Assembly (NCBI GenBank): GCA_026706595.1
Contig: JAPOYL010000031.1
Coordinates: 1-61,917 of the forward strand
Origin: Gammaproteobacteria bacterium
GTDB lineage: Bacteria; Pseudomonadota; Gammaproteobacteria; UBA4575
DNA length: 61,917 nt
Direction: 5' to 3'
Part shown: positions 6,587 to 45,385 of the stretch, piece after piece
How the letters are laid out: each line of letters begins with the position of its first letter
How positions within the stretch are numbered: the stretch's first letter is position 1
Notes under the pieces: generated by a model
The model's input: the letters and a program-made list of their open reading frames with translations, nothing else
Databases searched by the model: none
Told to the model about the DNA's origin: nothing
Made by a program: the position numbers and the translations under genes

Positions 6587-7666
6587 TCAAAGCACGGCCT
6601 TGGGGTAGGATCCAAGGATCTTGAGCAGACCGGCTTCGGCCTGCAGGGCTTCAAGCGAGTGCTTGACCGAAGGGTCTTCCCTGTGGCCGTCGAGGTCCAG
6701 GAAAAACACGTACTCCCAGTTCACGAAGTGCGAGGGCCTGGATTCGATCCGTGTCATGCTGACGTTGTTGTCCGCCAGCGGCTTGAGCAGGCTGTAGAGG
6801 GCGCCGGGCTTGTTTTTTGCTGAAACGAGCAAAGTGGTCTTGTCTGTACCGGTCGGTCCAATTTCCTGCTTGCCGATGATCAAAAAACGCGTGGTATTGT
6901 CGGCGGCGTCCTGAATGCTCTTCTTCAGGACCGTCAACTGGTAGGTGCGCGCCGCCTCGATGCCCGCGATGGCCGCGGCATCCGGCTCCTCGGCCGCGCG
7001 CCGGGCAGCCTCGGCGTTACTGTACACCGGCACCTGCGAAACCTCCGGCAGGTTGGCCCCCAGCCAGCGCTTGCACTGTGCCAGGGACTGCTGGTGGGCA
7101 TACAGTGTCTTGACTTCGGACAAGTCCGCAGCCTTGCTCATCAGGTGCTGGCGGACCTGCAGTTCGACTTCGCCAACGATCTTGAGCACCGACTCGAGAA
7201 ACATGTCCAGCGTACTGTTGACGATGCCCTGCGTTGAATTTTCAATCGGCACGACCCCGTAATCAGCGTGGTCCGACTCCACCTCGCGGAACACGTCGTC
7301 GATGGAGTCCGCCGCCTGGGTGCGGATGGAATTTCCGAAATGCTTGCGTGCGGCCTCTTCGGTAAACGTTCCGGACGGCCCGAGAAACGCCACCAGCAGC
7401 GGCTGCTGCAGGGCCAGGCATGCGGACATGGTCTCGCGAATCAGGCGCGCCATTTCCTTGTCGGACAGCGGCCCCTGGTTGTGCTTGATCGTGTTGCGAA
7501 CGACCAGTGCCTCGCGTTCCGGGTGGTAGTAGCTCTGGTTCTTGCAGGTATCCGTTTTCACCTGCGCGATCTGCAACGCCAGTTTCGCCCGCTCATTGAT
7601 CAGCTCCACCAGGGAGCGGTCTACAGAGTCAATCTTGCGGCGCAGGTTTTCTAGTTCATCACTCAT
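6587..7666 (-). CDS. pheA: Bifunctional chorismate mutase/prephenate dehydratase
   Basis: PheA converts chorismate to prephenate and then to phenylpyruvate, the committed route to phenylalanine. The 359-residue product has an AroQ-type chorismate mutase helix bundle (about residues 1-85), a periplasmic-binding-like prephenate dehydratase domain beginning FLGPSGTFTEEAA, and a C-terminal ACT domain with the phenylalanine-binding ESRPS motif. It is the first gene of the minus-strand operon, and its upstream region (7667-7866) is shared with the divergent importer operon. No hisC aminotransferase lies between it and tyrA, unlike the Pseudomonas order I recall. Confidence 0.97.
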   Translation of the reverse strand: MSDELENLRRKIDSVDRSLVELINERAKLALQIAQVKTDTCKNQSYYHPEREALVVRNTIKHNQGPLSDKEMARLIRETMSACLALQQPLLVAFLGPSGTFTEEAARKHFGNSIRTQAADSIDDVFREVESDHADYGVVPIENSTQGIVNSTLDMFLESVLKIVGEVELQVRQHLMSKAADLSEVKTLYAHQQSLAQCKRWLGANLPEVSQVPVYSNAEAARRAAEEPDAAAIAGIEAARTYQLTVLKKSIQDAADNTTRFLIIGKQEIGPTGTDKTTLLVSAKNKPGALYSLLKPLADNNVSMTRIESRPSHFVNWEYVFFLDLDGHREDPSVKHSLEALQAEAGLLKILGSYPKAVL

Positions 7667-10462: not shown

Positions 10463-11397
10463 GTACTCCTGTGAACAACCCAACGGGGGAAAGTGGGCAG
10501 ACCGGTGCCATATCCGAGGAACAGCCGAGGCGCAGTCTGAAGTTTTCCGGCGCCGGCAAGACCGGAATCGTCGTCATCCTGTTCTGGATCACCATGGTCT
10601 TCATCGGCCCCTGGGTGGCCCCCTTTCACGAGGCGGAATTCCTGGACGAGGCACTTTTCATCGAACCCGGCCTGGATGACCCCTATCCTGCCACCGACTT
10701 CCTGCCCCCGGGGGACGTTGCCTACCTGGGCACAGACTACTTGGGTCGCGACACCCTTTCGCGACTGCTCTACGGAGCCCGCACGACGATCGGAGTCTCG
10801 CTGCTCTCCACCTTGCTGGCCTACCTCATCGGCATAACACTTGGCATCGCGGCTGCCGCAGGAGGCCGGGTCCTGGACAGTTCGCTCAGCCGTCTCAATG
10901 ATGCCGTACTGTCCATGCCGACCATCATGCTGGGCATGGTCGTGATCTCCGCATACGGCAGTACCCTCCCTGTACTGATCGCCCTCACCAGCTTGATTTA
11001 CGCATCCAGCGTGTTCCGGATCGCGCGCGCCTTCGGACTGGACATCATGGTCAGCGATTTCGTCGATGCTGCACGGGTGCGCGGCGAGGGACTCGGATGG
11101 ATCATCCGCCGCGAGGTTCTGCCCGGCATGATCCTGCCCATGGCAAGCGATTTTGGCCTGCGGTTCGTCTACATCATCCTGTTTCTCTCGGGCCTGAGCT
11201 TTCTCGGGCTGGGCGTACAGCCGCCGCAATCCGACTGGGGCAGCATGGTCAGGGAAAATCTGGCCGGGCTGCCCTACGGGGCCATAGCACCCCTGATCCC
11301 GGCCCTTGCCATTGCCAGCCTGACCGTTGCCATCAACCTGGTCGTCGACGACATCTCCGCCCACCACGGCGGCAAGCTTGCGGAGAAAATCATCTGA
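10459..11397 (+). CDS. ABC importer permease, DppC/OppC type
   Basis: This is the second permease subunit, 312 residues. It has a long hydrophilic N terminus (about 35 residues), a first membrane helix (IVVILFWITMVFIGPWVA), then the DppC-type periplasmic segment ending in LGTDYLGRDTLSRLLYGAR, a signature of this subfamily. Five more helices and an EAA-like loop (ARVRGEGLGWIIRREVLPG) follow. The periplasmic segment is unusually acidic (EAEFLDEALFIEPGLDD), which could affect cation or peptide access, but that is inference. The start overlaps the dppB-like stop, and the stop shares one base with the ATPase ATG. Confidence 0.92.
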   Translation: MSTPVNNPTGESGQTGAISEEQPRRSLKFSGAGKTGIVVILFWITMVFIGPWVAPFHEAEFLDEALFIEPGLDDPYPATDFLPPGDVAYLGTDYLGRDTLSRLLYGARTTIGVSLLSTLLAYLIGITLGIAAAAGGRVLDSSLSRLNDAVLSMPTIMLGMVVISAYGSTLPVLIALTSLIYASSVFRIARAFGLDIMVSDFVDAARVRGEGLGWIIRREVLPGMILPMASDFGLRFVYIILFLSGLSFLGLGVQPPQSDWGSMVRENLAGLPYGAIAPLIPALAIASLTVAINLVVDDISAHHGGKLAEKII

Positions 11398-13205
11398 TGC
11401 CCGCGCTCCTGGAAATCGACAACCTGGTCATCGAGGCTGCGGGCGGTGGGGCCAGTCCGGCGCCTGTCATCAATGGTGTAAGCCTGCAGCTCGATGCAGG
11501 CGAGGTCCTGGCATTGATCGGCGAGTCCGGTTCCGGCAAGACCACCCTCGCATTGTCGACCCTGGGGTACGCCAAGCCGGGCCTGGAGTTCCGGGCAGGT
11601 GAAGTCCGGCTCAACGGAGATGACATCCTTGCCATGCCGGCGGATGAGAAACGAAGACTTCGCGGACAACGGGTCTCCTACCTTGCGCAAAGTGCCGCCG
11701 CGGCCTTCAATCCCGCGCTCAGGATCGGGGCACAGGTGACCGAAGCCTCCGTGCTCCACGGACAGCTCTCCCAAACCGAGGCCGACCGGCGTGCAACCGA
11801 CCTCTATCGGGCCCTGGGCCTACCAGACCCGGATCACCTGGGCAGGCGCTACCCGCACCAGGTCTCAGGTGGTCAGTTGCAGCGGCTCATGGCCGCGATG
11901 GCCCTGTGCGGCAAGCCTGACCTGCTGGTTCTGGATGAGCCCACCACGGCGCTGGATGTGACCACGCAGATTGAGGTCCTCAAGGCATTCAAGGACGTCA
12001 TCCGCCAGGAAGGCGCCGCCGCACTTTACGTGACCCATGACCTTTCCATCGTGGCTCAGATCGCAGATCGCATCGTCGTACTCTATGCCGGTGAGGTTGA
12101 GGAATACGGCACCGTCGATGATATCCTCAACCGCCCGCAGCATCGCTATACACGCCAGCTGATCGGTGCTGTGCGCCCGCCTCCGGACAGCACCCTGAGG
12201 CCGGAAAGTCTAGAAGAAACAAGACAAGACGTACCTGCACTTGAGGTGAAAGACCTGACTGCGGGCTACGGGAGAAAACATGCGAGCGGGCACACGGTCA
12301 AGGTGCTTCGGGATGTTCATGTCGCTGTCGGACAGGGTCGCTCACTGGGCGTGATCGGCGAGTCCGGATGCGGCAAATCAACACTTGCCCGGGTGATTTC
12401 AGGACTGCTCCCCGCCATGCAAGGTGATGTACTGCTCAAGGGCCAGCCACTGAAGCCCAGCCTGCGGCAGCGTGAGCGCCGGCAATTACAGAAGATCCAG
12501 TTCGTTTTCCAGATGGCCGATAACGCGCTCAACCCGCACCAGCGGGTCGACCAGCTCTTGGGCCGCCCTCTCGAGTTCTACTTCGGACTCTCGGGCGAGG
12601 AAAAAAGACAGCGCATCACCGAGCTGCTGCACATGGTTGAACTGCCCGCGGAATTTTCCGAACGCTACCCCGAAGAATTGTCCGGCGGCCAGAAACAGCG
12701 CGTCAACCTGGCTCGGGCACTCGCCGCATCCCCCGAGATCCTGCTGTGTGACGAGGTGATCTCGGCCCTGGACACGATTATTGGCGCAAGCATCATCCAG
12801 CTCCTCAAGCGCCTTCGCGAGCAAACCGATGTTTCCTTTGTTTTCATCAGTCATGACCTGTCCGCGATTGCCTCCTTTGCCGATGATATCGCCGTGCTCT
12901 ATGCCGGGCTGGTAGTGGAACAGGGTCCCGCAAACCGTGTGCTTGCACCGCCCTACCATCCCTACACCCGCCTGCTGATTGCCTCGGTTCCGGAACTGAG
13001 CCAGGGCTGGCTAGAGAGAACCCTTGAGATGCGCGAGACCCAGGCCAGTATCGATCGGGCCGTAGAGATCACTGACAGGGGTTGCCCGTTTTACCGCCGC
13101 TGTCCGCTGGCCATCGCCGGAACATGCAATCAGGAAGCGCCTCCCTTGCGCAACCTGGGTCATGGCCATTCGATCACATGCCACCGCAGCGAGGCAGAGT
13201 TGTAG
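11397..13205 (+). CDS. Fused double ABC ATPase (DppD-DppF type) of the importer
   Basis: This protein powers the importer. The 602-residue product joins two complete nucleotide-binding domains that are separate genes (dppD and dppF) in most bacteria. The first half has Walker A GESGSGKTT, signature VSGGQ and Walker B LLVLDEP. The second has GESGCGKST, LSGGQKQR and ILLCDEV. Each half ends with the oligopeptide-transporter C-terminal extension, and the second carries the cysteine cluster CPFYRRCPLAIAGTC, which is common in DppD/OppD-like proteins. The ATG at 11397 shares a base with the preceding stop (TGATG). The longer open frame upstream overlaps the permease and is not coding. All catalytic motifs look intact in both halves. 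Confidence 0.93.
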   Translation: MPALLEIDNLVIEAAGGGASPAPVINGVSLQLDAGEVLALIGESGSGKTTLALSTLGYAKPGLEFRAGEVRLNGDDILAMPADEKRRLRGQRVSYLAQSAAAAFNPALRIGAQVTEASVLHGQLSQTEADRRATDLYRALGLPDPDHLGRRYPHQVSGGQLQRLMAAMALCGKPDLLVLDEPTTALDVTTQIEVLKAFKDVIRQEGAAALYVTHDLSIVAQIADRIVVLYAGEVEEYGTVDDILNRPQHRYTRQLIGAVRPPPDSTLRPESLEETRQDVPALEVKDLTAGYGRKHASGHTVKVLRDVHVAVGQGRSLGVIGESGCGKSTLARVISGLLPAMQGDVLLKGQPLKPSLRQRERRQLQKIQFVFQMADNALNPHQRVDQLLGRPLEFYFGLSGEEKRQRITELLHMVELPAEFSERYPEELSGGQKQRVNLARALAASPEILLCDEVISALDTIIGASIIQLLKRLREQTDVSFVFISHDLSAIASFADDIAVLYAGLVVEQGPANRVLAPPYHPYTRLLIASVPELSQGWLERTLEMRETQASIDRAVEITDRGCPFYRRCPLAIAGTCNQEAPPLRNLGHGHSITCHRSEAEL

Positions 13206-13300
13206 TGCAGGCCGTCTTTACGGGCCAGTAACGGAACGTGTTACAGGACTTGCCCTGTGGGGACCCGAACCTCATCCCAGCATCGGATGCCCTGGCGCCC

Positions 13301-14755
13301 TCAGGTGATGCCACCCATGCACAGGTATTTGATTTCCAGGTATTCCTCGATGCCGTATTTGGACCCTTCGCGGCCGATGCCGGATTCCTTCATGCCCCCA
13401 AAGGGTGCCACCTCGGTTGAGATCAGTCCGGTATTGATGCCGACGATGCCGTATTCCAGGGCTTCGGCGATCTTCCAGACACGAGTGATGTCCCGGGTAT
13501 AGAAGTAGGCTGCAAGACCGTACTCCGTGTCATTGGCCATCCTGATTGCATCCTCGCCGGTCTTGAAGCGGTATACCGGTGCAAGTGGCCCGAAGGTTTC
13601 TTCCCGGCTCAGCGCCATGTCGGCAGTTACATCCACCAGCACCGTGGGTGAATAGAAATTCCCCCCCAGGGTGTGACGTTGTCCGCCGGTGAGCACTCGG
13701 GCACCCTTGGTGGAGGCATCCTGAACATGGTGTTCGACCTTTTCGATGGCGTGCTGGTCGATCAGCGGCCCGATTTCGGTTGCCTCATCCAGGCCGTTGC
13801 CTACATTCAGGGCGCTGACCGCCGCGGCCAGCTTCTCGTTGAAGCGGTCATAGATGCCGTCCTGCACGAATATACGGTTCGCGCAGACGCAGGTCTGCCC
13901 GGCGTTTCGAAACTTGGATTGCATTGCACCCTCGACGGCGGACTCGATGTCGGCATCGTCAAAAACGATAAACGGTGCATTGCCACCCAACTCCATCGTC
14001 ACCTTCTTCATGGTCTCGGCACATTGCTCCGTCAGTCGCTTGCCGACCTCGGCTGAACCGGTAAAGCTGAGCTTGCGCACGGCCGGGTTGGATGTGATCT
14101 CGCCACCGATCTCGGAGCTGATGCCACACAGGACATTCAGCACGCCCTCGGGGAGGCCTGCCTGCTCGGCGAGCCTTGCCAAGGCAAGCGCCGTGTGGGG
14201 TGTCTGGGATGCAGGTTTGGCGATGACGGTGCATCCGGCGGCCAGTGCCGGTGCAACTTTGCGCGTCAGCATGGCTAGCGGAAAATTCCAGGGGGTGATC
14301 GAGGCCACGACACCCACCGGCTCCTTGATCACCACAATGCGCTTGTCCTGCTGATGACCGGGAATGGTGTCGCCGTAGATGCGCTTGCCCTCCTCTGCAA
14401 ACCATTCGACGAAGGAAGCCCCGTAGCCGACTTCTGCGCGCGATTCCACCAGCGGTTTGCCCTGCTCGGTGGTCATGAGAACGGCGAGGTCCTCCTGGTT
14501 TTCCATGATCAGCTCAAACAAGTTGCGCAGGATGCCCGCCCGCTCCTTGGCGGTATGTGCCCGCCATTTCGGGAATGCCGCGCTGGCCGCCTGGATGGCA
14601 CGCCGGGTCTCGGCGGCACCCATCCTGGGAACCGAGCCGATGATCGTGCCATCGGCCGGATTGTCGGTTTCGATCCTGCCGCCATCGTCCGCATCCACCC
14701 AGGTGCCATCGATGTAGCACTGCTCGCAAAACAGCGAGGGATTGCTGAGATTCAT
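13301..14755 (-). CDS. gabD: Succinate-semialdehyde dehydrogenase-like aldehyde dehydrogenase
   Basis: GabD oxidises succinate semialdehyde to succinate, the last step of GABA degradation. The 484-residue product follows E. coli GabD closely from memory: FVEWFAEEGKRIYGDTIPGH, ITPWNFP, the glutamate motif ELGGNAPFIV, the catalytic cysteine in NAGQTCVCANR, and the end GREGSKYGIEEYLEIKY. Such strong agreement supports a C4 or C5 semialdehyde substrate, but related enzymes take glutarate semialdehyde, and an equivalent choice here is possible. It is transcribed toward the importer operon (convergent, 95 bases apart) and away from the ligase gene, with which it shares a 152-base control region. 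Confidence 0.9.
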   Translation of the reverse strand: MNLSNPSLFCEQCYIDGTWVDADDGGRIETDNPADGTIIGSVPRMGAAETRRAIQAASAAFPKWRAHTAKERAGILRNLFELIMENQEDLAVLMTTEQGKPLVESRAEVGYGASFVEWFAEEGKRIYGDTIPGHQQDKRIVVIKEPVGVVASITPWNFPLAMLTRKVAPALAAGCTVIAKPASQTPHTALALARLAEQAGLPEGVLNVLCGISSEIGGEITSNPAVRKLSFTGSAEVGKRLTEQCAETMKKVTMELGGNAPFIVFDDADIESAVEGAMQSKFRNAGQTCVCANRIFVQDGIYDRFNEKLAAAVSALNVGNGLDEATEIGPLIDQHAIEKVEHHVQDASTKGARVLTGGQRHTLGGNFYSPTVLVDVTADMALSREETFGPLAPVYRFKTGEDAIRMANDTEYGLAAYFYTRDITRVWKIAEALEYGIVGINTGLISTEVAPFGGMKESGIGREGSKYGIEEYLEIKYLCMGGIT

Positions 14756-14907
14756 GGAAAACTCCCCGTCAAGCGTTGGATGTGGGTCAGTTCGGACCCA
14801 TGGTAATTGATCCTGCCGCCAAGTTTACTGACAGGGACCTGTTCTGGCCACACGGCGGACCCGGCAGCATCTTGTCTTGAACAAGATTTCGGGAATAGAC
14901 TGTGCCC
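14756..14907. promoter_or_regulatory. Divergent control region with two inverted repeats
   Basis: This gap separates gabD (minus) from the ligase gene (plus). It contains TGGGTC-6-GACCCA at 14783-14800, on the gabD side, and ATCTTGT-5-ACAAGAT at 14869-14887, ending 20 bases before the ligase ATG. Both are perfect and fit dimeric repressor sites in size, although the second could also form a hairpin in the ligase leader. No regulator gene lies nearby. I found no clear -10/-35 pair. Confidence 0.45.
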
Positions 14908-16497
14908 ATGTCCTTGCCACTCCACTCGCTCTTGCCGGCGCAGGCCCGGGAACGGCCTGACAAGGTTGCACTCGAATACCGTGAAAAAAAGGTGTCCTAT
15001 CACGACCTGAATCTGGCGTGTGAGCATTTCGCAGGCGGCTGCCAGCGAGTCGGACTCCCACACAGAGCCCGCATCGGCGTGTACCTGCCGCGATGTATCG
15101 AGGCGGTAGTCGCCTTTTTCGGAACCCTGCAGGCGGGCGCCTGTCTCGTGCCGGTCAACCCGGCCCTGAAGTCCCGGCAAGCGAGCCACATCCTGGAGGA
15201 CTGCGGCATAGAACTGCTGGTGACGACCTCGAGCCGGCTCGACACACTGCACGAGGCACTCATGCACGACTCCCAGTTGCACACGGTGGTTCTGATCGAC
15301 CAGGAGGCAATGCCCTCCAGCGACTCCGACCAAGCGGTCCGCATCGAAGGCTGGCGGGAATTTTGTGCACGGTCCGCACCGGCCAGCATGGACCTGCAGG
15401 ATACGGATCTTGCGGCCATTTTCTACACTTCCGGCAGCACCGGCCTGCCCAAGGGGGTCATGCTCACCCACAAGAACCTGTGCGCGGGGGCAGAAAGTGT
15501 GACCGCGTACCTGGAAAATACATCGAAGGACCGGATTCTCGCCGTGCTGCCCTTCAGTTTTGACTACGGGTTCAGTCAGCTGAGTACAGCATTCAGTGTG
15601 GGGGCGACGGTGGTGATCCTCGACTACCTCCTGCCGCAGGATATTCTAAAGGCCATCGAGCGTGACCGGATTACGGGCCTGGCCGGCGTTCCTGCCCTGT
15701 GGCAACAGCTTGGCCGGCTTGAATGGCCGAAGGCTGCCGGCGAGACGCTTCGCTACATCACCAGTTCAGGCGATGTCCTGCCCGAGACCACCGTCAGGAT
15801 GCTCACCGAGAAGCTTCCGGCGACTGACATGTACCTGATGTACGGCTTCACGGAGGCCTTCCGGTCCACCTACCTGCCGCCACAGGAGATCCATCGCCGG
15901 CCCACATCGATCGGCAAGGCCATCCCAGGCGCCTGGGTCCAGATCGTGCACCCGGACGGCTCCCCCTGTGACCCGGATGAGGTCGGCGAACTGGTGCATG
16001 GCGGCCCCCTGGTGGCCCAGGGGTACTGGAACCACTCCGTGGAAACCGGGGAGCGGTTCAGGCCGCTTGCGGCGAGCCTTGCAGACTCCCGGGAGGCCGG
16101 TGAGGTCGTGGCTTGGTCCGGGGACCTTGCCCGTCAGGACGGCGACGGGTACTTCTACTTCGTCGGGCGCAAGAACGACATGATCAAGACCTCGGGTTAC
16201 CGAGTCAGTCCGGCCGAGATCGAGGGACCAGCCTGCCAACACGACGCCGTTCGCGAAGCCGTGGCCTTTGGTGTGACCCACCCGCAACGCGGCCAGTCCA
16301 TCGTGCTGACCTGCACCACCGACCAGGAGCCCGAACGGGCAGAAGCTGAGCTGGACCTGTACCTGAAAGATGTCCTACCACTGTATATGGTTCCGGAGCA
16401 CTACGTCTGGACGGACGCGATCCCCTGCAACGACAATGGCAAGTTCGACCGCAAGCGACTGGCCAGCCAGTACCAGGCGAGCGTGACGAGGACGTGA
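14908..16497 (+). CDS. AMP-forming acyl-CoA/acyl-ACP ligase, exosortase-A-associated type
   Basis: This is a member of the adenylate-forming family that activates a carboxylate with ATP and passes it to CoA or a carrier-protein thiol. The product is 529 residues from the ATG at 14908 (a GTG lies six bases upstream). Adenylation motifs are complete: YTSGSTGLPKGVMLTH (about 175-190), YGFTEAFRSTYLPP, SGDLARQDGDG, GRKNDMIKTSGYRVSPAEIE, and the C-terminal lysine in NGKFDRKRL. The string TEAFRSTYLPP is one I associate with the ligases of exosortase A (EpsH) gene sets. The decarboxylase follows after four bases. The substrate is unknown. The neighbouring ACP suggests loading onto a carrier protein. 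Confidence 0.88.
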   Translation: MSLPLHSLLPAQARERPDKVALEYREKKVSYHDLNLACEHFAGGCQRVGLPHRARIGVYLPRCIEAVVAFFGTLQAGACLVPVNPALKSRQASHILEDCGIELLVTTSSRLDTLHEALMHDSQLHTVVLIDQEAMPSSDSDQAVRIEGWREFCARSAPASMDLQDTDLAAIFYTSGSTGLPKGVMLTHKNLCAGAESVTAYLENTSKDRILAVLPFSFDYGFSQLSTAFSVGATVVILDYLLPQDILKAIERDRITGLAGVPALWQQLGRLEWPKAAGETLRYITSSGDVLPETTVRMLTEKLPATDMYLMYGFTEAFRSTYLPPQEIHRRPTSIGKAIPGAWVQIVHPDGSPCDPDEVGELVHGGPLVAQGYWNHSVETGERFRPLAASLADSREAGEVVAWSGDLARQDGDGYFYFVGRKNDMIKTSGYRVSPAEIEGPACQHDAVREAVAFGVTHPQRGQSIVLTCTTDQEPERAEAELDLYLKDVLPLYMVPEHYVWTDAIPCNDNGKFDRKRLASQYQASVTRT

Positions 16498-16501
16498 TGG
16501 C

Positions 16502-17737
16502 ATGAACCGCCCGCAACTACAACATTACAGCCCGCAAAAGCTCTTTGACCGAGAAGGGCCGCATCTCGTAGTCGCCGGTCAAACCTTGATGGATATCGCC
16601 GGACAATGCGGGCCCACACCGCTGTATATCTACAGCAAGCAAGCGATTAATGATCGTATCGCAGCCCTGAAAGCCGCACTGCCTGCACGCGTGCATCTGC
16701 ACTATGCGGTCAAGGCCAATCCGATGCAGGAGGTGATTGACTATGTGGCCGAGCAGGTGCACGGACTGGATGTCTCCTCCGGAAATGAACTCAAGGCGGC
16801 TCTGCAAAGCGGCATCCGGGCACAAAACATCAGCTTTGCCGGCCCCGGAAAGTCCTTGCAGGAATTGAAGGCCGCGATCGCCGCCGACATTACCCTGAAT
16901 GTCGAATCGGAAGTCGAGTTCACCCGTATCCTGAGCCTTTGCGAAGAAACCGGGCAGGTGGCACGAGTGGCCTTGCGCATCAACCCGGATTTCGAACTCA
17001 GGGCTTCCGGCATCAAGACCTCGGGCGGGCCCCAGCCGTTCGGCGTGGATGCGGAGGCCGCACCGGAGTTGCTGGAGAAAATATCTACATCCGCTGTCGA
17101 GTTCAGAGGCTTTCATATTTTCAGCGGCTCGCAGGTCCTGCAGGCCAAGACTCTCATCGAGGCTCACAGGAAAACCTTTGCTCTGGCCAAACAGCTTGCA
17201 GACCATGCCCAAGTGCCCGTACAGACCCTGAACATCGGTGGCGGCTTCGGCATTCCTTATTTCCCGGGCGATGCTCCGCTTGAAGTAGCCCCGGTGATGG
17301 AACACCTGGAGGGGTTGCTCACCGAATACCGGGAAACCTTTGCCGAGACACAAATCATTCTTGAACTCGGCCGCTACCTGGTGGGTGAGGCTGGGTTGTA
17401 CATGGCCCGGATCACGGACCGCAAGGTTTCCAGGGGCACTACCTACCTGGTGACCGATGGCGGGCTACACCACCACCTCGCTGCCAGCGGCAACTTCGGT
17501 CAGGCACTTCGCAGAAACTACCCGATCACCATTGGCAACAAGCTGGGCGGGCACACCGAGACGGTCACCGTCGTCGGGCCGCTGTGCACCCCACTGGACA
17601 TGCTGGCCAAGGACATGGATTTGCCGAAAGCCGAAATTGGCGACCTGCTCGTGGTGTTCCAGTCCGGAGCATACGGCTACAGTGCCAGCCCGCTGGAATT
17701 CCTGAGCCATCCCAGGCCCCGTGAAATTCTGGTTTGA
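16502..17737 (+). CDS. Type III PLP-dependent decarboxylase, exosortase-A-associated (BtrK-like)
   Basis: This is an alanine-racemase-fold decarboxylase in the same superfamily as diaminopimelate and ornithine decarboxylases. The 411-residue product has the PLP lysine in LHYAVKANP (Lys71), FHIFSGSQ, the phosphate-binding glycine loop NIGGGFGIPY, ELGRYLVGEAG, the active-site GPLCTPLDMLA, and SGAYGYSAS. These strings, including CTPLD in place of the CE/CES of LysA, match the group found with exosortase A. A characterised relative is BtrK, which decarboxylates glutamyl-S-ACP in butirosin synthesis. The gene starts four bases after the ligase stop and converges with the ACP gene. Acting on an ACP-bound amino acid is inference. 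Confidence 0.88.
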   Translation: MNRPQLQHYSPQKLFDREGPHLVVAGQTLMDIAGQCGPTPLYIYSKQAINDRIAALKAALPARVHLHYAVKANPMQEVIDYVAEQVHGLDVSSGNELKAALQSGIRAQNISFAGPGKSLQELKAAIAADITLNVESEVEFTRILSLCEETGQVARVALRINPDFELRASGIKTSGGPQPFGVDAEAAPELLEKISTSAVEFRGFHIFSGSQVLQAKTLIEAHRKTFALAKQLADHAQVPVQTLNIGGGFGIPYFPGDAPLEVAPVMEHLEGLLTEYRETFAETQIILELGRYLVGEAGLYMARITDRKVSRGTTYLVTDGGLHHHLAASGNFGQALRRNYPITIGNKLGGHTETVTVVGPLCTPLDMLAKDMDLPKAEIGDLLVVFQSGAYGYSASPLEFLSHPRPREILV

Positions 17738-17783
17738 GGTACAGGTATGTGGGCTGCAGGATCGAGGGCGGGGCCAGCAAGCT

Positions 17784-18041
17784 TCAGGGCCGGTCTTCCA
17801 TTTTCGATGCGATCAGGTCGCGCAACGTGCCTACAGTTTGAAACGCCTTGGCATCCAGGTCGTCCTCATCGAACACGATGTCAAAGCTTTTCTCCAGTCC
17901 GGCGATGATGCCGGTGATGGCCATCGAGTCCAGTTCCGGGATGGTGCCCAGAAGCGGCGCCTGTTCTCCCATCTCGTAGGTGGTCTCCGGCAGGGGCAAG
18001 GATTCCGCCAGCACCTCCAGCACCTGTTCAATTGCAATCAT
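17784..18041 (-). CDS. Acyl carrier protein
   Basis: This is a small carrier protein of 85 residues with the four-helix ACP pattern and a phosphopantetheine attachment serine at position 39 in ELDSMAI. AGGAT sits about six bases before the ATG. It is not the fatty-acid AcpP, since it lacks the strongly acidic ADSLD-type site and the fab context. It lies 116 bases downstream of serC on the same strand and converges with the decarboxylase gene, leaving 46 bases between them. I infer that it carries the substrate of the ligase and decarboxylase. A phosphopantetheinyl transferase would be supplied from elsewhere. Confidence 0.85.
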   Translation of the reverse strand: MIAIEQVLEVLAESLPLPETTYEMGEQAPLLGTIPELDSMAITGIIAGLEKSFDIVFDEDDLDAKAFQTVGTLRDLIASKMEDRP

Positions 18042-18157: not shown

Positions 18158-19246
18158 TCAAGTGTACTGCTGCCTGGCTTCAAACTCAGACATGAATTCT
18201 GTCAGGCGATCAACGCCGGCATCGGGCATCGCATTGTACAGGCTCACCCGGACACCGCCCGCACTCCGATGGCCCTGCAATCCGAGCAACTGGCGCTGCT
18301 CCGCCTGGCGCAAAAAGTCTTCCAGGGTCCCGGCATCGCGAATCGCAAAGGGGATGTTGATGCTTGAGCGAAACTCGGGGGCGACCCGGTTTTCATACAG
18401 CCGGCTTTCATCGAGCACCCGGTACAGCTGTGCCGATCGCGCAAGGCTCTTTTGGTGCAAGGCGGGCAGACCGCCCTGCTCTCGCACCCAGTCCAGCAGC
18501 TCGCGCAGGACATAGATGGCAAACACCGGGAGGGTGTTCACCACGGAGTCCTCCCGGACATAGCGCCGGTAATCGTACAGGCGCGGGACCGGCTCGTTCA
18601 CTTGCTTGAGCAGATCTTTTCGGATGATCACCACGCAAAGCCCGGCGATGCCCAGGTTTTTCTGGGTACTGGCATAGATGAGTGAGAATTTTGGAATCTC
18701 TACGGGGTGCATGAGCAGGGACGAGGTCATGTCGCACACCAGTGCCCCCTGGGGCGCCTCCGGAACCCCGGGAAATGAGATCCCCTGGATGGTCTCGTTG
18801 TCACAGAAGTGCAGGTAGGTGGCTTGCGGGTCCAGATCCCATTCATGCTCGGGTGCGATGCTCAACGACTCGCCCTCGCACAAGGCCTGGACCTTGCGCA
18901 CCTCGGCAAAACGCGTGGCCTCGGCACAGGCCCTCGAAGACCAGAAGCCCGTGCACAGGTAGTCTGCGAAACGCCCTGGCCCGAGGAAATTCAGGGGCAC
19001 CATGGAGAACTGGCTGGTGGCCCCGCCGTGCATGAACAGCACCGCGAACTCCTCCGGGATCTGCAACAGCTCACGCAGCCCCTGCACGGCCTGGTCGCGA
19101 ATCTCGAAAAACGCATCGCTGCGGTGCGGCAGTTCGAGCACGGAAAGTCCGGTGCCCTTGTAGTCCAGCAGCTCGTGGCGGATTTTTTCCAGGACCGGCC
19201 GGGGCAAGGCAGCAGGCCCGGAACCAAAATAAAAGACTTCCTGCAT
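18158..19246 (-). CDS. serC: Phosphoserine aminotransferase
   Basis: SerC makes 3-phosphoserine from 3-phosphohydroxypyruvate and glutamate, and also serves pyridoxal phosphate synthesis. The 362-residue product opens with FYFGSGPAALP and has the PLP lysine in the STQKNLG motif (Lys196), the MHGGATSQF segment, and the C-terminal HRSAGGVRVSLYNAMP signature. It follows gyrA by 29 bases. In relatives serC continues into pheA, whereas here the next gene on the strand is a carrier protein and pheA is about 10.5 kb away. Confidence 0.97.
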   Translation of the reverse strand: MQEVFYFGSGPAALPRPVLEKIRHELLDYKGTGLSVLELPHRSDAFFEIRDQAVQGLRELLQIPEEFAVLFMHGGATSQFSMVPLNFLGPGRFADYLCTGFWSSRACAEATRFAEVRKVQALCEGESLSIAPEHEWDLDPQATYLHFCDNETIQGISFPGVPEAPQGALVCDMTSSLLMHPVEIPKFSLIYASTQKNLGIAGLCVVIIRKDLLKQVNEPVPRLYDYRRYVREDSVVNTLPVFAIYVLRELLDWVREQGGLPALHQKSLARSAQLYRVLDESRLYENRVAPEFRSSINIPFAIRDAGTLEDFLRQAEQRQLLGLQGHRSAGGVRVSLYNAMPDAGVDRLTEFMSEFEARQQYT

Positions 19247-19275: not shown

Positions 19276-21855
19276 TCAGTCCGGATCGTCGAGTTTCTCG
19301 ATCCTTTCGACCTCGACCAGCTTTTCCTCTTCTGACAGGCGGATCAGGCGCACCCCCTGCGTGTTGCGGCCGGTCTTGGATACGCCCTCGACCGGGGTGC
19401 GAACCAGCGTGCCGTTGTCGGTGATCAGCATGATTTCATCTTCGCTGGAGACCGGCATGGCTCCGACCACCTTTCCGTTACGTTCTCCGGTCTGGATGGT
19501 GATCACGCCCTTCCCTCCACGGCTTTGCACCCGATAATCCTCGATCTGGGTGCGTTTGCCGTAGCCGTTTTCAGTGGCCACTAGGATGTCCGTGGCCTCC
19601 ATGTCCGGGCGAACCACCAGTAGGCTGATAACCTTCTGGCCCTCGTCCAGGCGCATGCCGCGCACTCCCCGGCTGGTGCGCCCGGTAGCCGTAACATTTT
19701 TTTCACTGAAGCGAATCGCCTTGCCGGCATCACTGACCATCAAGAGGTCGGTGTCGCCGTGCGTCATGACCACGTCGATCAGGTAATCCTGGTCGCGCAA
19801 GTCCACCGCGATAATGCCGCCGGCACGGGGTCTGGAAAATGCCGTCAGGCGGGTCTTCTTGATCGTGCCACTGCTTGCAGCCATCACCACGTAGGCATCC
19901 TCGCCGTACTCCTTGACGGGCAGCACGGCATTGATCCGCTCGCCCTCGCTCAGCGGCAGGAGATTGACGATCGGCTTGCCGCGCGCCGTGCGACCGGCCT
20001 GCGGCAGCTCGTAGACCTTTAGCCAGTAGACCTTGCCGTGGCTGGAAAAGCACAGGATGGTGTCGTGGGTGTTGGCGACGAACAGCTGATCAACGAAATC
20101 CTCGGCTTTCACCGAGGTGGCGGCCTTGCCCTTGCCCCCACGGCGCTGGGGATTGTAGGTATCCAGGGGCTGGGACTTGGCGTAGCCGCCGTGGGACAGC
20201 GTCACCACCACGCCCTCATCCTGGATCAGGTCTTCCAAAGTGAGGTCGACCCGCTCCTCAGAAATTTCCGTGCGCCGCGCATCCCCGTACTGTTCGCGGA
20301 CGGTCTCGAGTTCTTCGCGGATGACCTGCATGAGCCGCTCCGGATCCTGCAAAATATCCAGCAGGCCTCTGATCTTGTCGAGCAGGCTGCCGTAATCCTT
20401 GACGATCTTGTCCTGTTCCAAGCTGGTTAGGCGGTGCAGGCGCAAATCCAGGATGGCCTGGGCCTGGGCCGGGGACAGGCGGTATTCGGGGACTGGGGCT
20501 ATGCGCTGTTCGTTAACCTGCATCCCATATTCTTCCTCCAGTCCCTCCGGGCGCGAAACATCGGCCCCGGAGCGCTCCAACATGTGCGTGACCTCACCAG
20601 GCTTCCAGGTCCGGGCAATCAACTCGTCCTTGGCGATGGCCGGGCTGGCTGAGCCCTTGATGAGCACGATAATCTCGTCGATGTTGGCCAGGGCCACGGC
20701 CAGGCCTTCAAGAATGTGGGCCCGTTCACGTGCCTTGCGCAGTTCGAATATGGTGCGGCGAGTGGCGACATCGCGACGGTGGCGGATGAACACCTGCAGG
20801 ATCTGCCTGAGGTTGAGCAGCCGGGGCTGCCCGTCCACTAGGGCCACCATGTTCATGCTGAACACGCTTTGCATGGGCGTGTGCTTGAACAGGTTGTTGA
20901 GGATGACCCCGTTGACCTCGTCGCGGCGCAGTTCGATGACAATGCGCATGCCGTCCTTGTCCGACTCATCCCGAAGGCCGTTGGCAGCGATGCCTTCAAG
21001 GCGCTTCTCCTTGACCAGGTCGGCGATCTTGATGATCAGGTTGGCCTTGTTCACCTGGTACGGAAGCTCGGTGACCACGATGCGCTCGCGACCGCTCTTG
21101 GCATCCTGCTCGATGTGGGTGCGGGCACGCATGTGCACGCGACCGCGCCCCGTGCTATACGCCTCATGGATGCCTTCCCGACCGTTGATGATGGCCGCCG
21201 TCGGGAAGTCCGGTCCGGGCAGGTGCTGCATCAGTTCCAGGACGTCCATGGCAGGATTCTCGATCATGGCGATGCAGGCGTTGATCACTTCGGTCAGGTT
21301 GTGTGGCGGGATGTTGGTCGCCATCCCCACCGCGATCCCCGAGGAGCCGTTGACCAGCAGGTTGGGAATCCGGGTGGGCAACACCGTCGGCTCGGATTCA
21401 GAGTTGTCGTAGTTGGATGCGAAATCGACCGTTTCCTTGTCCAGGTCGGCCAGGATCTCGTGGGTGATTCTCGCCATGCGCACCTCGGTGTAGCGCATGG
21501 CGGCCGGCGCATCGCCGTCCACCGAACCGAAATTGCCCTGTCCGTCGATCAGCATGTAGCGCATGGAAAACGGCTGCGCCATGCGCACCAGGGTGTCGTA
21601 CACGGCCGACTCCCCATGCGGGTGGTACTTGCCGATGACATCGCCCACGACCCGCGCGGATTTCTTGTACGGCTTGTTCCAGTCATTGCCGAGTTCGTTC
21701 ATGGCGTGCAGGGCCCGTCGGTGCACCGGCTTGAGGCCGTCACGCACATCCGGCAGGGCGCGCCCGACGATCACGCTCATGGCGTAATCGAGATACGACT
21801 GGCGCATCTCGTCCTCGAGATTGACGGAAAGGACTTCTTTGGCGATAACAGCCAT
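19276..21855 (-). CDS. gyrA: DNA gyrase subunit A
   Basis: GyrA is the DNA-cleaving subunit of gyrase, which introduces negative supercoils. The 859-residue product contains the catalytic tyrosine at 122 (MRYTE) and the quinolone-resistance region [10 protein letters not shown], with Ser83 and Asp87 at E. coli numbering, so no classical resistance change is present. The C-terminal wrapping domain carries the GyrA box QRRGGKG and repeated pinwheel blades. A -10-like TATACT lies at 21901-21906 on this strand, about 46 bases before the ATG. gyrA and serC are likely cotranscribed. Confidence 0.98.
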
Positions 21856-37882: not shown

Positions 37883-39670
37883 CTAGCTGGCAAGCGCTAC
37901 ATCCACATTGCGCTGCAGCCAGAGCTCAAGCAGGGCCAGATGCCATAACTTGCTGCCCTGAAGCGGAGTCATGTGCTGCTCCGGTTCGCCCAGCAGGCGC
38001 TCGACATGGTCCGGCTGGAACAGGCCGCGCTGCCGGCAGGCCTCGGAATGCAGCACCTCGCGCATGAATTCCACGAATTCGCCGCGGATGTACTTCAGGG
38101 CGGGCACCGGGAAGTACCCCTTTTTGCGGTCGATGACCTGCGCCGGCAAAAGGCCCCGGGCAATCTGCTTGAGGACGTGCTTGCCTCCTTGCGCCAGCTT
38201 GTACTGCACCGGCATCTGCATGGCCAGCTCCACCAGTTCGTGATCCAGAAACGGCACCCGGGCCTCCAGCCCGTGCGCCATGGTCATGTTGTCGACGCGT
38301 TTCACGGGGTCATCGACCACCAGGGTCGTGACATCCATGTGCAACACGGCGCGCACAAACTCCTGCGTGCCGGCCTGCCTCAGCAATCGCTGCACGGTCG
38401 TCGAGGTGAAATCCTCGCTGACCAGGTCCGGGGGCAGCACCTCGCGTATCTCGGCATGGCTGCGGTCAAAGTAGTGCTTGGCAAAACTCTCCGTACTGAA
38501 CGAGGCCTCGGCCTGCATCCTGGGATACCAGAAGTAGCCGCCGAAGACCTCATCGGCGCCCTGGCCGGACTGCACTACCGAGATGTGCTGGCTGACCTGC
38601 TCGGCCAGCAGGTAGAAGGCAATCGCATCCTGGCCCACCATGGGCTCGGCCATGTGTTCCACCGCCTCCGGCAGGCGCTCGAGCACTTCACGGTTGTCGA
38701 TCAGGAACTTGTGGTGACGCGTGCCAAAGTGCTCGGCGACCGCATCCGAGTATTCGAACTCGTTGCCGCGCTCCTCAGGCTGGTCTTCAAACCCCACCGA
38801 ATAGGTGCGCAACTCGCCTACCCCGGACTCGGCCAGAAGACCTACCAGCAGGCTGGAGTCCAGGCCTCCCGACAGCAGCACGCCCACCGGCACATCGGCC
38901 ACGTGCAGGCGCTTTTCCACGGCCCCGCGCAACGCGGCCTGAATGGCCTGCTGCCATTCGCGCTCACTTTTATGGCCCCCGTCGGAGTCGGCCTGCAGTT
39001 GCCAGTAGGCCTTCGTCTTCGCTGCCCCGCGCACCGGCACCCGCAGGGTGTGTCCCGGCGCCAGCTTTTTCAGCCCGCGCAGGATCGTGCCGGGAGCCGG
39101 CACCACGCCGTGCAGGCTCAGGTGGTGGTGCAGACCGGGCGCATCGATGCGGGTGTCCACCCCGCGGGTGCACAGCAGCGCCTGCGAGTTCGAGGCAAAG
39201 CGGAAAAAGCCCTTGTCCTGCGTGTAGTAGAGCGGCTTGATGCCCAGCCGGTCGCGGGCCAGGAACAGCTCCTGCGCCTGCACGTCCCAGATGGCAAAGG
39301 CGAACATCCCGACCAGCTTTTCGACGCTGGACGGTCCCCACTGCGCATATGCCTTGAGGATGACCTCGGTATCTCCATGGGAGCGGAACGTGTGGCCCTG
39401 TGCGATCAGCTGCTCGCGCAGCTGCGGGTAGTTGTAGATGGCGCCGTTGAACACGATCGCGCGTTGCGTGTCGGCATCGAACATCGGCTGGTTGGCCTTC
39501 GCCGAGAGATCGATGACCGACAGGCGCCGATGGCCGAGACCGATCGCCCCGGAAAAATAGCGACCCTCGTGATCGGGCCCGCGACGCCGCAGGGCCTGCA
39601 ACATGGCCTCAATCGTGCCCGGGTCCGGCGCAGTGCCGTCAAGGCGCAGCTCGCCGCAGATGCCGCACAT
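37883..39670 (-). CDS. Glutamine-dependent asparagine synthase-like amidotransferase (NAGGN amidotransferase type)
   Basis: This is a two-domain enzyme of 595 residues. The N-terminal class II glutaminase begins with the Cys2 nucleophile (MCGICGELRLDG), followed by RGPDHEG and FNGAIYNYPQL. The C-terminal synthetase has the SGGLDSSLLVG pyrophosphate loop. The strings VQSGQGADEVFGGY, VDDPVKRVDNMTMAHGLEAR, KKGYFPVP and TPLQGSKLWHLA are those I associate with AsnO-type enzymes that amidate N-acetylglutaminylglutamine, an osmolyte. The partner synthetase gene (ngg) is not adjacent. It begins six bases after hyuB, so the two probably share a transcript. Plain AsnB activity remains possible. Confidence 0.9.
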   Translation of the reverse strand: MCGICGELRLDGTAPDPGTIEAMLQALRRRGPDHEGRYFSGAIGLGHRRLSVIDLSAKANQPMFDADTQRAIVFNGAIYNYPQLREQLIAQGHTFRSHGDTEVILKAYAQWGPSSVEKLVGMFAFAIWDVQAQELFLARDRLGIKPLYYTQDKGFFRFASNSQALLCTRGVDTRIDAPGLHHHLSLHGVVPAPGTILRGLKKLAPGHTLRVPVRGAAKTKAYWQLQADSDGGHKSEREWQQAIQAALRGAVEKRLHVADVPVGVLLSGGLDSSLLVGLLAESGVGELRTYSVGFEDQPEERGNEFEYSDAVAEHFGTRHHKFLIDNREVLERLPEAVEHMAEPMVGQDAIAFYLLAEQVSQHISVVQSGQGADEVFGGYFWYPRMQAEASFSTESFAKHYFDRSHAEIREVLPPDLVSEDFTSTTVQRLLRQAGTQEFVRAVLHMDVTTLVVDDPVKRVDNMTMAHGLEARVPFLDHELVELAMQMPVQYKLAQGGKHVLKQIARGLLPAQVIDRKKGYFPVPALKYIRGEFVEFMREVLHSEACRQRGLFQPDHVERLLGEPEQHMTPLQGSKLWHLALLELWLQRNVDVALAS

Positions 39671-39676
39671 CAGGAT

Positions 39677-41212
39677 TCAGCTGGCAAGACCCCAGCCACC
39701 CCCGCCGGGCGACTCGATGCGCAGGCAATCCCCGGCACACACCTCACGCCAGACCTTGCCCGGCATCGGTTCGTCATTCAGGAAATTCGCACCGGGTCGG
39801 GCCTCAGCGCCGCCGTGCAGCCCCCAGGGGCTTCGGGTGCGGCGTTCCGACAGGATCGTGAGCGTCGCAGGCTCAAGAAATTCGAGTTCCCGGACCAAGC
39901 CGTCTCCACCGCGGTGCCAGCCCGGCCCCCCCGAGCCTGTACGGATGGCGTAGCGCCTGATCCGCAACGGAAAATTGATCTCCAGGACCTCCACCGGGGT
40001 GTTTTGCGTGTTGGTCATGTGGGTCTGTACGGCGGACAGGCCGGGCGCATGTTTCGAGCCGCCCATGCCTCCGGCAATGGTTTCATAGTACCCCCAGGGC
40101 GTGTCGCTTGAGCTGCCGAGGGCCAGATTGTTCATCGTGCCCTGGCTGCAGGCCGGGATGGCATCGGGCAATGCCTGCCCCAGGGCGCCGAGCACCGCAT
40201 CGACGATGCGCGAACTGGTCTCCACGTTGCCAGCCGCCACCGCGGCCGGGCGCTTCGCATTCAGCAGCGAACCGGAAGGCGCTTTGAGCCGGAACGGGGC
40301 GAAGCTGCCGGCGCATGCCGGGGTCTCGTCCGGCATCAGGCACCGGAATACGTAAAACACCGCAGCCGCCGTCACCGACAGGGGACAGTTGATGTTGCCC
40401 GCAACCTGCGCTGCCGTGCCGGTGAAGTCCACCACGATGTTGTCGTCGCCGACCTGCAGTGAAACGCAAATGGCTAGATCGGTACCGCCCTGTCCGTCAT
40501 CGTCCATGTAGTCCGTAAACGTATAGCTGCCGTTTGGAATTTTCGCAATCATGGCGCAGGCAATCTGCCGGCCGTAGTCGTTGAGCTCACCCAGCGCCTG
40601 CAGGAACTGCGCTTCGCCGGTTTTCTCGACCAGTTCCTCGAGGCGCGCGATGCCACGCCTGTTTGCGCTGCACTGTGCCGCCATGTCACCCAGCGTATCG
40701 CGCAGGTTCCTGGCGTCGCGGAACAGCTCGGTGATCGCCTGCTGGTCGATTTCACCACCACGGCCAATCACGGTCGGGGGAATCACCACGCCCTCTTGCG
40801 AGAGGTCCGTGGACACCGGCATCGAGCCCGGGGTTTCTGCGCCGATGTCTGCGTGGTGGGCCCGGTTGGCCACGAATCCCATCAGCCTTTCCCGGATGAA
40901 CACCGGGCAGACCACCGTCACATCGGGCAAATGGGTGCCACCGAGATAGGGATCATTCAGGGCAACGAAGTCCCCGGGCGCCCAGCTCCTTTGTGTGACG
41001 ATCTGCTGCATGGCATAAGCCATGCTGCCGAGATGCACCGGAATATGTGCGGCCTGGGCACACAGCCCGCCCTGTGCATCGAACACGGCACAGGAGAAAT
41101 CCAGGCGATCCCGGATATTCGGGGAAAAGGCCGCAAACCGCAGTTGTGCACCCATCTCTTCGCACACCGCATCAATCCTGCGGGCGAAAATACTGAGCTC
41201 GATCGGGTTCAT
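39677..41212 (-). CDS. Hydantoinase B/oxoprolinase family protein
   Basis: HyuB proteins form the second subunit of ATP-dependent hydantoinases or oxoprolinases, or acetophenone carboxylases. The 511-residue product has the family's starting motif FARRIDAVCEEMG, the DFSCAVFDAQGGLCAQAAHIPVHLGSM segment, NDPYLGGTHLPDVTVV, and NRAHHADIG. It ends in a glycine-rich loop ESPGGGGWG. The usual hyuA partner, with its ATPase fold, is absent on either side, and this gene is followed by an amidotransferase. The start lies 115 bases from the divergent PuuD-like gene. The substrate is unknown. Confidence 0.88.
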   Translation of the reverse strand: MNPIELSIFARRIDAVCEEMGAQLRFAAFSPNIRDRLDFSCAVFDAQGGLCAQAAHIPVHLGSMAYAMQQIVTQRSWAPGDFVALNDPYLGGTHLPDVTVVCPVFIRERLMGFVANRAHHADIGAETPGSMPVSTDLSQEGVVIPPTVIGRGGEIDQQAITELFRDARNLRDTLGDMAAQCSANRRGIARLEELVEKTGEAQFLQALGELNDYGRQIACAMIAKIPNGSYTFTDYMDDDGQGGTDLAICVSLQVGDDNIVVDFTGTAAQVAGNINCPLSVTAAAVFYVFRCLMPDETPACAGSFAPFRLKAPSGSLLNAKRPAAVAAGNVETSSRIVDAVLGALGQALPDAIPACSQGTMNNLALGSSSDTPWGYYETIAGGMGGSKHAPGLSAVQTHMTNTQNTPVEVLEINFPLRIRRYAIRTGSGGPGWHRGGDGLVRELEFLEPATLTILSERRTRSPWGLHGGAEARPGANFLNDEPMPGKVWREVCAGDCLRIESPGGGGWGLAS

Positions 41213-44198: not shown

Positions 44199-45188
44199 TC
44201 ATCGTTTTCTTGCAAGCACCAGCGAAAAATGCTCATCGCCGGGTGCGAAGTGCATGTCCTCGCTGAGGGCACTTCCTTCGAGCAGCTGGCGAATGGAGGC
44301 GCGGGTGTACTTTCGGCTGATTTCGGTCAGGATCGTCTCCCCCGCTGCAATGTCCAGGGTCTCGCCGAGATCTGCCAGCGTAACCTGCTGGGCCTGCCGG
44401 GCCACCAGATACATCTCGATCTGTTCCCGGGCTTCCTGATAGACGGCGCGGTGCGAGAAGTTCTCGAGCCTGAAATTTCCTCCCAGACGGGTGTTCAGCA
44501 CCTGCAACACGTTCAGGTTGAACTGGGCCGTGATGCCTTCGTCATCATCATAGGCCTGCTCGAGGAGCTTCCTGTCCTTGACCCGGTCCAGGCCCAGCAA
44601 AAAGGCATCCTCGGGACCCATGATCCCGGACACCCCGGCGAGAAGCTCCATCGCCTCGGCTTCGGTAAAATTGCCGATCGAACTGCCGATGAAGACAAAC
44701 AGTACCGGCCCGTCGAGCCTGGGCAGGGCGTGAAGGGCACTCAGGTACTCGCCTGCCAGGGCTTCGATTCGCAATCGGGGGTAGTGGTACAGCAGGCGCG
44801 CAGCGGATTCGATCAGCATCTCCTCGCAAACATCGATCGGCACATAGGTGAAGGGTCGTGAACCAGCTGCCAGCCCGGAGAGCAGGATTTCTGTTTTCAC
44901 GGAGGTTCCTGCACCCAGTTCCACGCAGGTCCGCGGTCGCGCAGCAGCAATGATCTCATCGGCATGCCGTTTCAGCAGCGCGGACTCGGTGCGGGTCAAG
45001 TAGTAGTGCCGGGTCTTGCAGATGGCATCAAACAGCCTCGAGCCGGCCTCGTCGTAGAAGTACTTGGGCGGCAGGCTGCGCGGTGCACACAGCATGCCCG
45101 CCAGCACGTCGTGCTTTAAGGTTTGCTGTGCATCCTGGTGGGATAACGCCTTGATTTGGAAGCGCTTAAGAGGCAAGTCCGTGGCCAT
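44199..45188 (-). CDS. egtD: L-histidine N-alpha-methyltransferase (EgtD family)
   Basis: EgtD makes hercynine by methylating histidine three times, the first committed step to ergothioneine. The 329-residue product from the ATG at 45188 has LPPKYFYDEAGSRLFDAIC, the SAM site ELGAGTSVKTEILL, PIDVCEEML, and FIGSSIGNFTEAEA. A longer frame exists upstream and is not used. The partner enzymes EgtB/EgtC or Egt1 are not in the window, and it converges with argF. A close relative in other lineages methylates other substrates, so the product is likely but not certain. Confidence 0.9.
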   Translation of the reverse strand: MATDLPLKRFQIKALSHQDAQQTLKHDVLAGMLCAPRSLPPKYFYDEAGSRLFDAICKTRHYYLTRTESALLKRHADEIIAAARPRTCVELGAGTSVKTEILLSGLAAGSRPFTYVPIDVCEEMLIESAARLLYHYPRLRIEALAGEYLSALHALPRLDGPVLFVFIGSSIGNFTEAEAMELLAGVSGIMGPEDAFLLGLDRVKDRKLLEQAYDDDEGITAQFNLNVLQVLNTRLGGNFRLENFSHRAVYQEAREQIEMYLVARQAQQVTLADLGETLDIAAGETILTEISRKYTRASIRQLLEGSALSEDMHFAPGDEHFSLVLARKR

Positions 45189-45385
45189 TAGATATACTCC
45201 CGTTTTCGGGGTAGCATTGCAAGCAGGAGCTGTCTGACCGGAGTGTACAGGCGGTGCCTGCAATGGAATACATGACCGGCCCCCGTCATCCGGTCCGTTC
45301 ATGGGGAATCCACACGTTGCCATGTGCAAAAGAAAGCTGGTGACAAACGTATCGCAGGGAGCCGCTATGAAAATAAGGTGTGGAA

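Follow-up and report, generated by a model that had tools for sequence, protein, structure and literature searches.

The DNA analysed here, referred to as the window, is a stretch of 61,917 nucleotides from G000, a gammaproteobacterial MAG of 1.56 Mb (32 contigs, 92% complete) that was examined with targeted profile searches. A preliminary description had placed a ligase, a decarboxylase and an acyl carrier protein (ACP) at positions 14908 to 18041 of the window, and open reading frames with the expected motifs were located there. These three genes, hereafter called the trio, and the genes that surround them are listed below.

14908..16497, plus strand: ligase (AMP-forming, ANL adenylation enzyme, ligase_PEP_1, TIGR03098), scoring 650 bits (cut-off, 592)
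16502..17737, plus strand: PLP-dependent decarboxylase, BtrK-like by sequence (dCO2ase_PEP1, TIGR03099), scoring 567 bits (cut-off, 478)
17784..18041, minus strand: stand-alone ACP with an ELDS site and orthologues in 8 genomes
18158..19246, minus strand: serC (phosphoserine transaminase), context, one border of the junction, profile match and conserved neighbour
19276..21855, minus strand: gyrA, context, profile match
6587..7666, minus strand: pheA (chorismate mutase/prephenate dehydratase), context, other border of the junction
13301..14755, minus strand: succinate-semialdehyde dehydrogenase, divergent from the ligase

The ligase reading frame extends from 14902 to 16497 on the plus strand and encodes 531 amino acids, with a GTG at 14902 as a possible start and an ATG at 14908. 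Its product scored 650.2 bits on the TIGR03098 profile, above the curated cut-off of 592.35, and its C-terminal NGK motif is intact. A search of solved proteins recovered VinN (3wvn) at 182 bits, as a general homologue only, and a fold search with a model of the ligase returned generic ANL enzymes, with PltF-PigG on top. The ligase is an ANL adenylation enzyme closer to VinN or PltF. BtrJ is an ATP-grasp ligase, and the analogy with BtrJ drawn in the preliminary description would hold for function but probably not for the kind of enzyme.

The residues around the active site were then compared among 105 aligned relatives of the ligase. The equivalent of PheA Asp235, the aspartate by which amino-acid adenylating enzymes hold the amino group, is conserved in 104 of them, and the equivalent of PheA position 330 is an Arg (within TEAFR) in 103. 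An Arg at this position together with the retained Asp235 is consistent with an amino acid bearing a second acid group. The adenylation-domain specificity string of the window ligase, DYSATSMR, is identical in the exosortase-bearing genomes G007, G081 and G084 and in the ligases of Nitrosospira sp. Nsp14 and NpAV. Since these are the specificity residues of exosortase-bearing loci, the substrate of the trio is probably unchanged relative to such loci. At the positions equivalent to PheA 236/278/299/301, the TIGR03098 alignment falls into two main specificity types, Y/A/T/S in the window ligase, nitrosifiers and many gammaproteobacteria, and A/T/A/T in Zoogloea, Thauera and Accumulibacter; judged from these residues, the two types may correspond to two substrates.

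The decarboxylase (411 amino acids) reached 566.7 bits on TIGR03099, whose curated cut-off is 478.45. Thus, both profile searches agree with the earlier assignment of the ligase and decarboxylase to the exosortase-A type. All decarboxylase motifs are intact (GPLCTPLD, ELGRYLVGEAG, YAVKAN, HIFSGSQ, and GGGFG), and a CTP..D motif is found, as in BtrK, where CE..D would stand. When solved proteins were searched, BtrK (7ru7 and 2j66) came out on top with 252 bits versus 170 bits for the best diaminopimelate decarboxylase. By sequence the enzyme is BtrK-like, as the preliminary description had read it.

The third gene encodes an ACP of 85 amino acids on the minus strand, convergent to the ligase-decarboxylase pair, an orientation on which the preliminary description is silent. 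Its phosphopantetheine site is ELDS, with the serine at position 39, which fits the (D/E)(L/F)DS criterion for a stand-alone carrier. The best solved match is 2lki, and similarity to the AsbD and AmcB carrier models is weak. An orthologue occupies the same position in all eight genomes of g1, the genus of G000 (5 genomes), and g2, its sister genus (3 genomes; completeness across the eight, 77 to 97%). Among 80 wider loci, a carrier lies within the retrieved flanks of 40, and in 35 of these 40 there is one on the opposite strand. An ACP opposite to the ligase-decarboxylase pair is therefore the usual layout, and the idea that its orientation sets it apart from the trio was rejected on these counts.

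No exosortase or PEP-CTERM protein had been noticed in the window, and this observation was extended to the whole of G000, in which TIGR02602 gave neither a match nor a first-look candidate for an exosortase and TIGR02595 revealed none of the PEP-CTERM tails that are present in G007 and G009. FemAB (TIGR03019) and hydrolase 1 (TIGR03100) had no match in any of the eight genomes of g1 and g2, G000 included. Seven of these genomes, again with G000, were also searched for EpsB_2 (TIGR03013), the XrtA sugar transferase, and none has it. Glycosyltransferase and polysaccharide genes were likewise missing among the ca. 40 window ORFs scanned, in line with the preliminary description as far as glycosyltransferases are concerned. 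All five g1 and all three g2 genomes possess the ligase and lack an exosortase, and the same is true of G012, which consists of one contig and is listed as 100% complete. Because of this agreement, incomplete assembly does not explain the missing exosortase, and an exosortase locus hidden in a gap of the MAG was rejected. The preliminary description had allowed for an exosortase locus elsewhere in the genome, lacking a ligase and decarboxylase of its own, of which the trio would be a displaced part; a search of G000 revealed no such locus.

The chromosomal neighborhood of the trio is conserved. It adjoins serC in 8/8 g1 and g2 genomes, and the order gyrA - serC - ACP - decarboxylase - ligase - pheA is kept as far as the contigs reach. 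In the three g2 genomes, serC and the ACP gene are separated by one additional gene, for a sugar-nucleotide epimerase. In G007, a complete genome that represents a different genus within the family, almost the entire XrtA exopolysaccharide set is found between pheA and serC. It comprises wecB, ligase, decarboxylase, hydrolase 1, hydrolase 2, ACP and FemAB, along with the XrtA-system genes (TIGR03006, TIGR03016, TIGR03018, TIGR03007, TIGR03027, and TIGR03013) for a polysaccharide deacetylase, an outer-membrane protein, a tyrosine kinase, a chain-length determinant, an export protein and a sugar transferase. The sole exosortase of G007 is of the XrtD type and lies 0.97 Mb from this nearly complete XrtA-type accessory locus (L043/L163/L055). 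At the equivalent junction of G014 and G016, which represent a third genus, an exosortase stands beside serC without the trio; it is nearest to XrtA, and in G014 it falls under the cut-off of the XrtA model. G015 has kept the decarboxylase, hydrolase 1, hydrolase 2 and ACP genes in the order seen in G007.

A quick tree of the ligase and decarboxylase unites the 13 family sequences in a single cluster (SH-aLRT, 95). Recent horizontal arrival of the trio was rejected, since the family sequences group together and share the junction. The simplest history is that an XrtA-type exopolysaccharide locus was present at serC-pheA in the ancestor of the family and was trimmed to the trio in g1 and g2. 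A tree alone cannot show direction, and we infer loss rather than gain because other genomes still hold the larger set. We therefore read the trio as what is left of an XrtA-type locus and not as a piece displaced from a functioning one; it preserves the core of a locus type already known and does not constitute a new system. The earlier suggestion of a free-standing module is thus correct for the present state, in eight genomes of two genera, but not for the origin, given the XrtA-type locus at serC-pheA in sister genera. The succinate-semialdehyde dehydrogenase gene, whose product belongs to GABA catabolism, is found beside the ligase only in G000 and its nearest relative, G001; this placement is possibly a coincidence or possibly a link to a 4-aminobutyryl product.

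Selection on the trio was estimated by comparing G000 with G001. The dN/dS values of the trio (ligase, 0.16; decarboxylase, 0.09; ACP, 0.17) were similar to those of serC (0.15) and gyrA (0.09), and all three frames are intact in the eight g1 and g2 genomes. These data indicated that the trio is under purifying selection, like its housekeeping neighbors, and decay was rejected on the dN/dS values. The trio has been retained, apparently in working order, in a lineage without the rest of the gene set.

What reaction could the trio carry out? BtrK decarboxylates glutamate carried by BtrI (PMC7857480), and VinO acts on 3-methylaspartate only once VinN has loaded it on VinL (PMC11284099). These two precedents, together with Asp235 and Arg330 of the ligase, led us to propose that an acidic amino acid is loaded through its side chain and then decarboxylated. 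We consider it likely that what survives in the trio is the core of an exosortase-A-type exopolysaccharide locus, and that its ligase loads an acidic amino acid and its decarboxylase yields an omega-aminoacyl-ACP whose acyl group is moved to an envelope molecule. According to this proposal, the exosortase, PEP-CTERM proteins, FemAB, hydrolases and polysaccharide genes would have been lost in g1 and g2, with the trio retained under selection. The ligase would adenylate a glutamate- or aspartate-like amino acid via the side-chain carboxylate and attach it in thioester linkage to the ACP; the BtrK-like decarboxylase would strip the free alpha-carboxylate from the ACP-bound amino acid, giving a 4-aminobutyryl- or beta-alanyl-like product; and an enzyme encoded elsewhere would transfer the omega-aminoacyl group to an envelope molecule. 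By analogy the trio probably makes a carrier-bound amine. Loading onto the ACP rather than CoA is assumed from the neighborhood and from precedent, and substrate, product and acceptor are all inferred. No acceptor enzyme or acyltransferase partner was identified in G000.

Hydrolase 1 was detected over the cut-off in 10 of 113 relatives, each time with the ligase, so the hydrolases probably act on the product of the trio where they are present; they are dispensable in the lineage of G000. Since FemAB and the hydrolases, the possible users of the product, are absent there, the fate of the product must differ from that in XrtA loci. A literature search yielded no published function for the ligase, decarboxylase or carrier of exosortase-A loci and no biochemical data on any TIGR03098/TIGR03099 pair, and the 2006 PEP-CTERM paper (PMC1569441) mentions none of the three. 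That the trio is kept alone in a small-genome lineage suggests that its members act as one unit for which an exosortase, FemAB and two hydrolases are not needed. A vague association is thereby converted into a uniform three-protein reaction, separated from a complex gene set and testable in vitro, and the answer would extend to the many XrtA loci that share the specificity residues.

Several known systems resemble the trio in part. It shares with the XrtA-associated ligase, decarboxylase and ACP the passing of both cut-offs, the opposite-strand ACP and the specificity residues, whereas no exosortase, PEP-CTERM protein, FemAB, hydrolase 1 or EpsB_2 accompanies it in G000. The butirosin proteins BtrI and BtrK share with it the GPLCTP..D motif and an adjacent carrier, and BtrK is the closest solved relative of the window decarboxylase; however, the window ligase is an ANL adenylation enzyme, and the surroundings of the trio showed no aminoglycoside genes. 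The VinN-VinL-VinO system of vicenistatin likewise combines a stand-alone adenylation enzyme, a stand-alone ACP and a PLP decarboxylase, of which VinO needs an ACP thioester (PMC11284099). The surroundings of the window trio, however, showed neither a polyketide synthase gene nor one of the VinM/VinK type, and VinN is related to the window ligase only in a general way. Dlt and AlmEFG, which aminoacylate envelope polymers by way of a carrier, resemble the trio in that a separate ligase charges a separate carrier protein with an amino acid (PMC3783018); the trio adds a decarboxylase.

To see how far the module extends, 281 genomes of the class were surveyed, with the decarboxylase called at E values up to 1e-130. 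Of the 35 genomes in which it was present, 27 also have an exosortase; for the genomes without it the figure is 71 of 246 (Fisher p = 6e-8). The eight carriers devoid of an exosortase are G000, G012, G069, G157, G169, G198, G241, and G256, among which the decarboxylases of G169 and G256 score below the TIGR03099 cut-off and branch apart. Two Endozoicomonas genomes and one Kangiella genome also encode the ligase and decarboxylase with no exosortase over the cut-off. No acceptor gene shared by the other exosortase-less trios emerged when their neighbors were annotated. A broader proposal, offered tentatively, is that the amine module of XrtA loci is an independent unit which several lineages have detached and reused for omega-aminoacylating another envelope molecule, as a Dlt/Alm-like system with a built-in decarboxylase.

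Among the alternatives to the proposed history and reaction, the one that fares best is that the module has been repurposed: like AlmEFG or Dlt, but with an added decarboxylation step, it would place an aminoacyl group on lipid A, on the LPS core or on some other lipid. A stand-alone adenylation enzyme with a stand-alone carrier fits the Dlt/Alm logic (PMC3783018). In the exosortase-less Endozoicomonas loci (L151 and L152; ~11220-13870), two heptosyltransferase-family (GT9) genes precede the carrier gene on its strand, and the ligase-decarboxylase pair runs convergently towards them; this context hints at an acceptor on the LPS side. However, the Endozoicomonas link is one of context in two genomes of one genus, no such gene lies near the trio in g1, and no partner acyltransferase was recognized. 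We therefore hold this alternative to be possible and rather doubtful.

An ordinary CoA ligase working beside a decarboxylase for a free amino acid, of the diaminopimelate or polyamine type and unrelated to the ACP, is improbable. TIGR03098 is named as an acyl-CoA ligase, and the lysA model (TIGR01048) gave 273.5 bits with the window decarboxylase. This score is, however, under the cut-off of 297.9, the motif is that of BtrK and not CE..D, and G000 carries a separate lysA that scores 513.6 bits on the same model, which argues against a part in lysine biosynthesis; a diaminopimelate decarboxylase role was rejected on these grounds. The adjoining carrier in 8/8 g1 and g2 genomes and the carriers in the flanks of half of the wider loci also speak against a pair unrelated to the ACP.

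We regard it as very improbable that a functioning exosortase/exopolysaccharide system, encoded in the portion of the genome missing from the assembly, is still served by the trio. The draft state of G000 and the strong association of TIGR03099 with exosortases would favor it, but it is at odds with the exosortase-free state of the g1 and g2 genomes and single-contig G012 and with the absence of FemAB, hydrolase 1 and EpsB_2 across those g1 and g2 genomes searched. That the trio is a decaying leftover without function can scarcely be credited, even though nearly all partners of the ancestral locus are gone, as the frames are intact in eight genomes, dN/dS (0.09 to 0.17) is that of housekeeping neighbors, and catalytic and specificity residues are retained.

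Two further features of the window were recorded. A protein of the histidine-specific SAM methyltransferase family (PF10017, EgtD-like) is encoded at 44199-45329. The ORF at 37973-40111 (712 amino acids) has no Pfam match and overlaps an opposite-strand hydantoinase B gene (39677-41212) by ~430 bases; it may be partly spurious.
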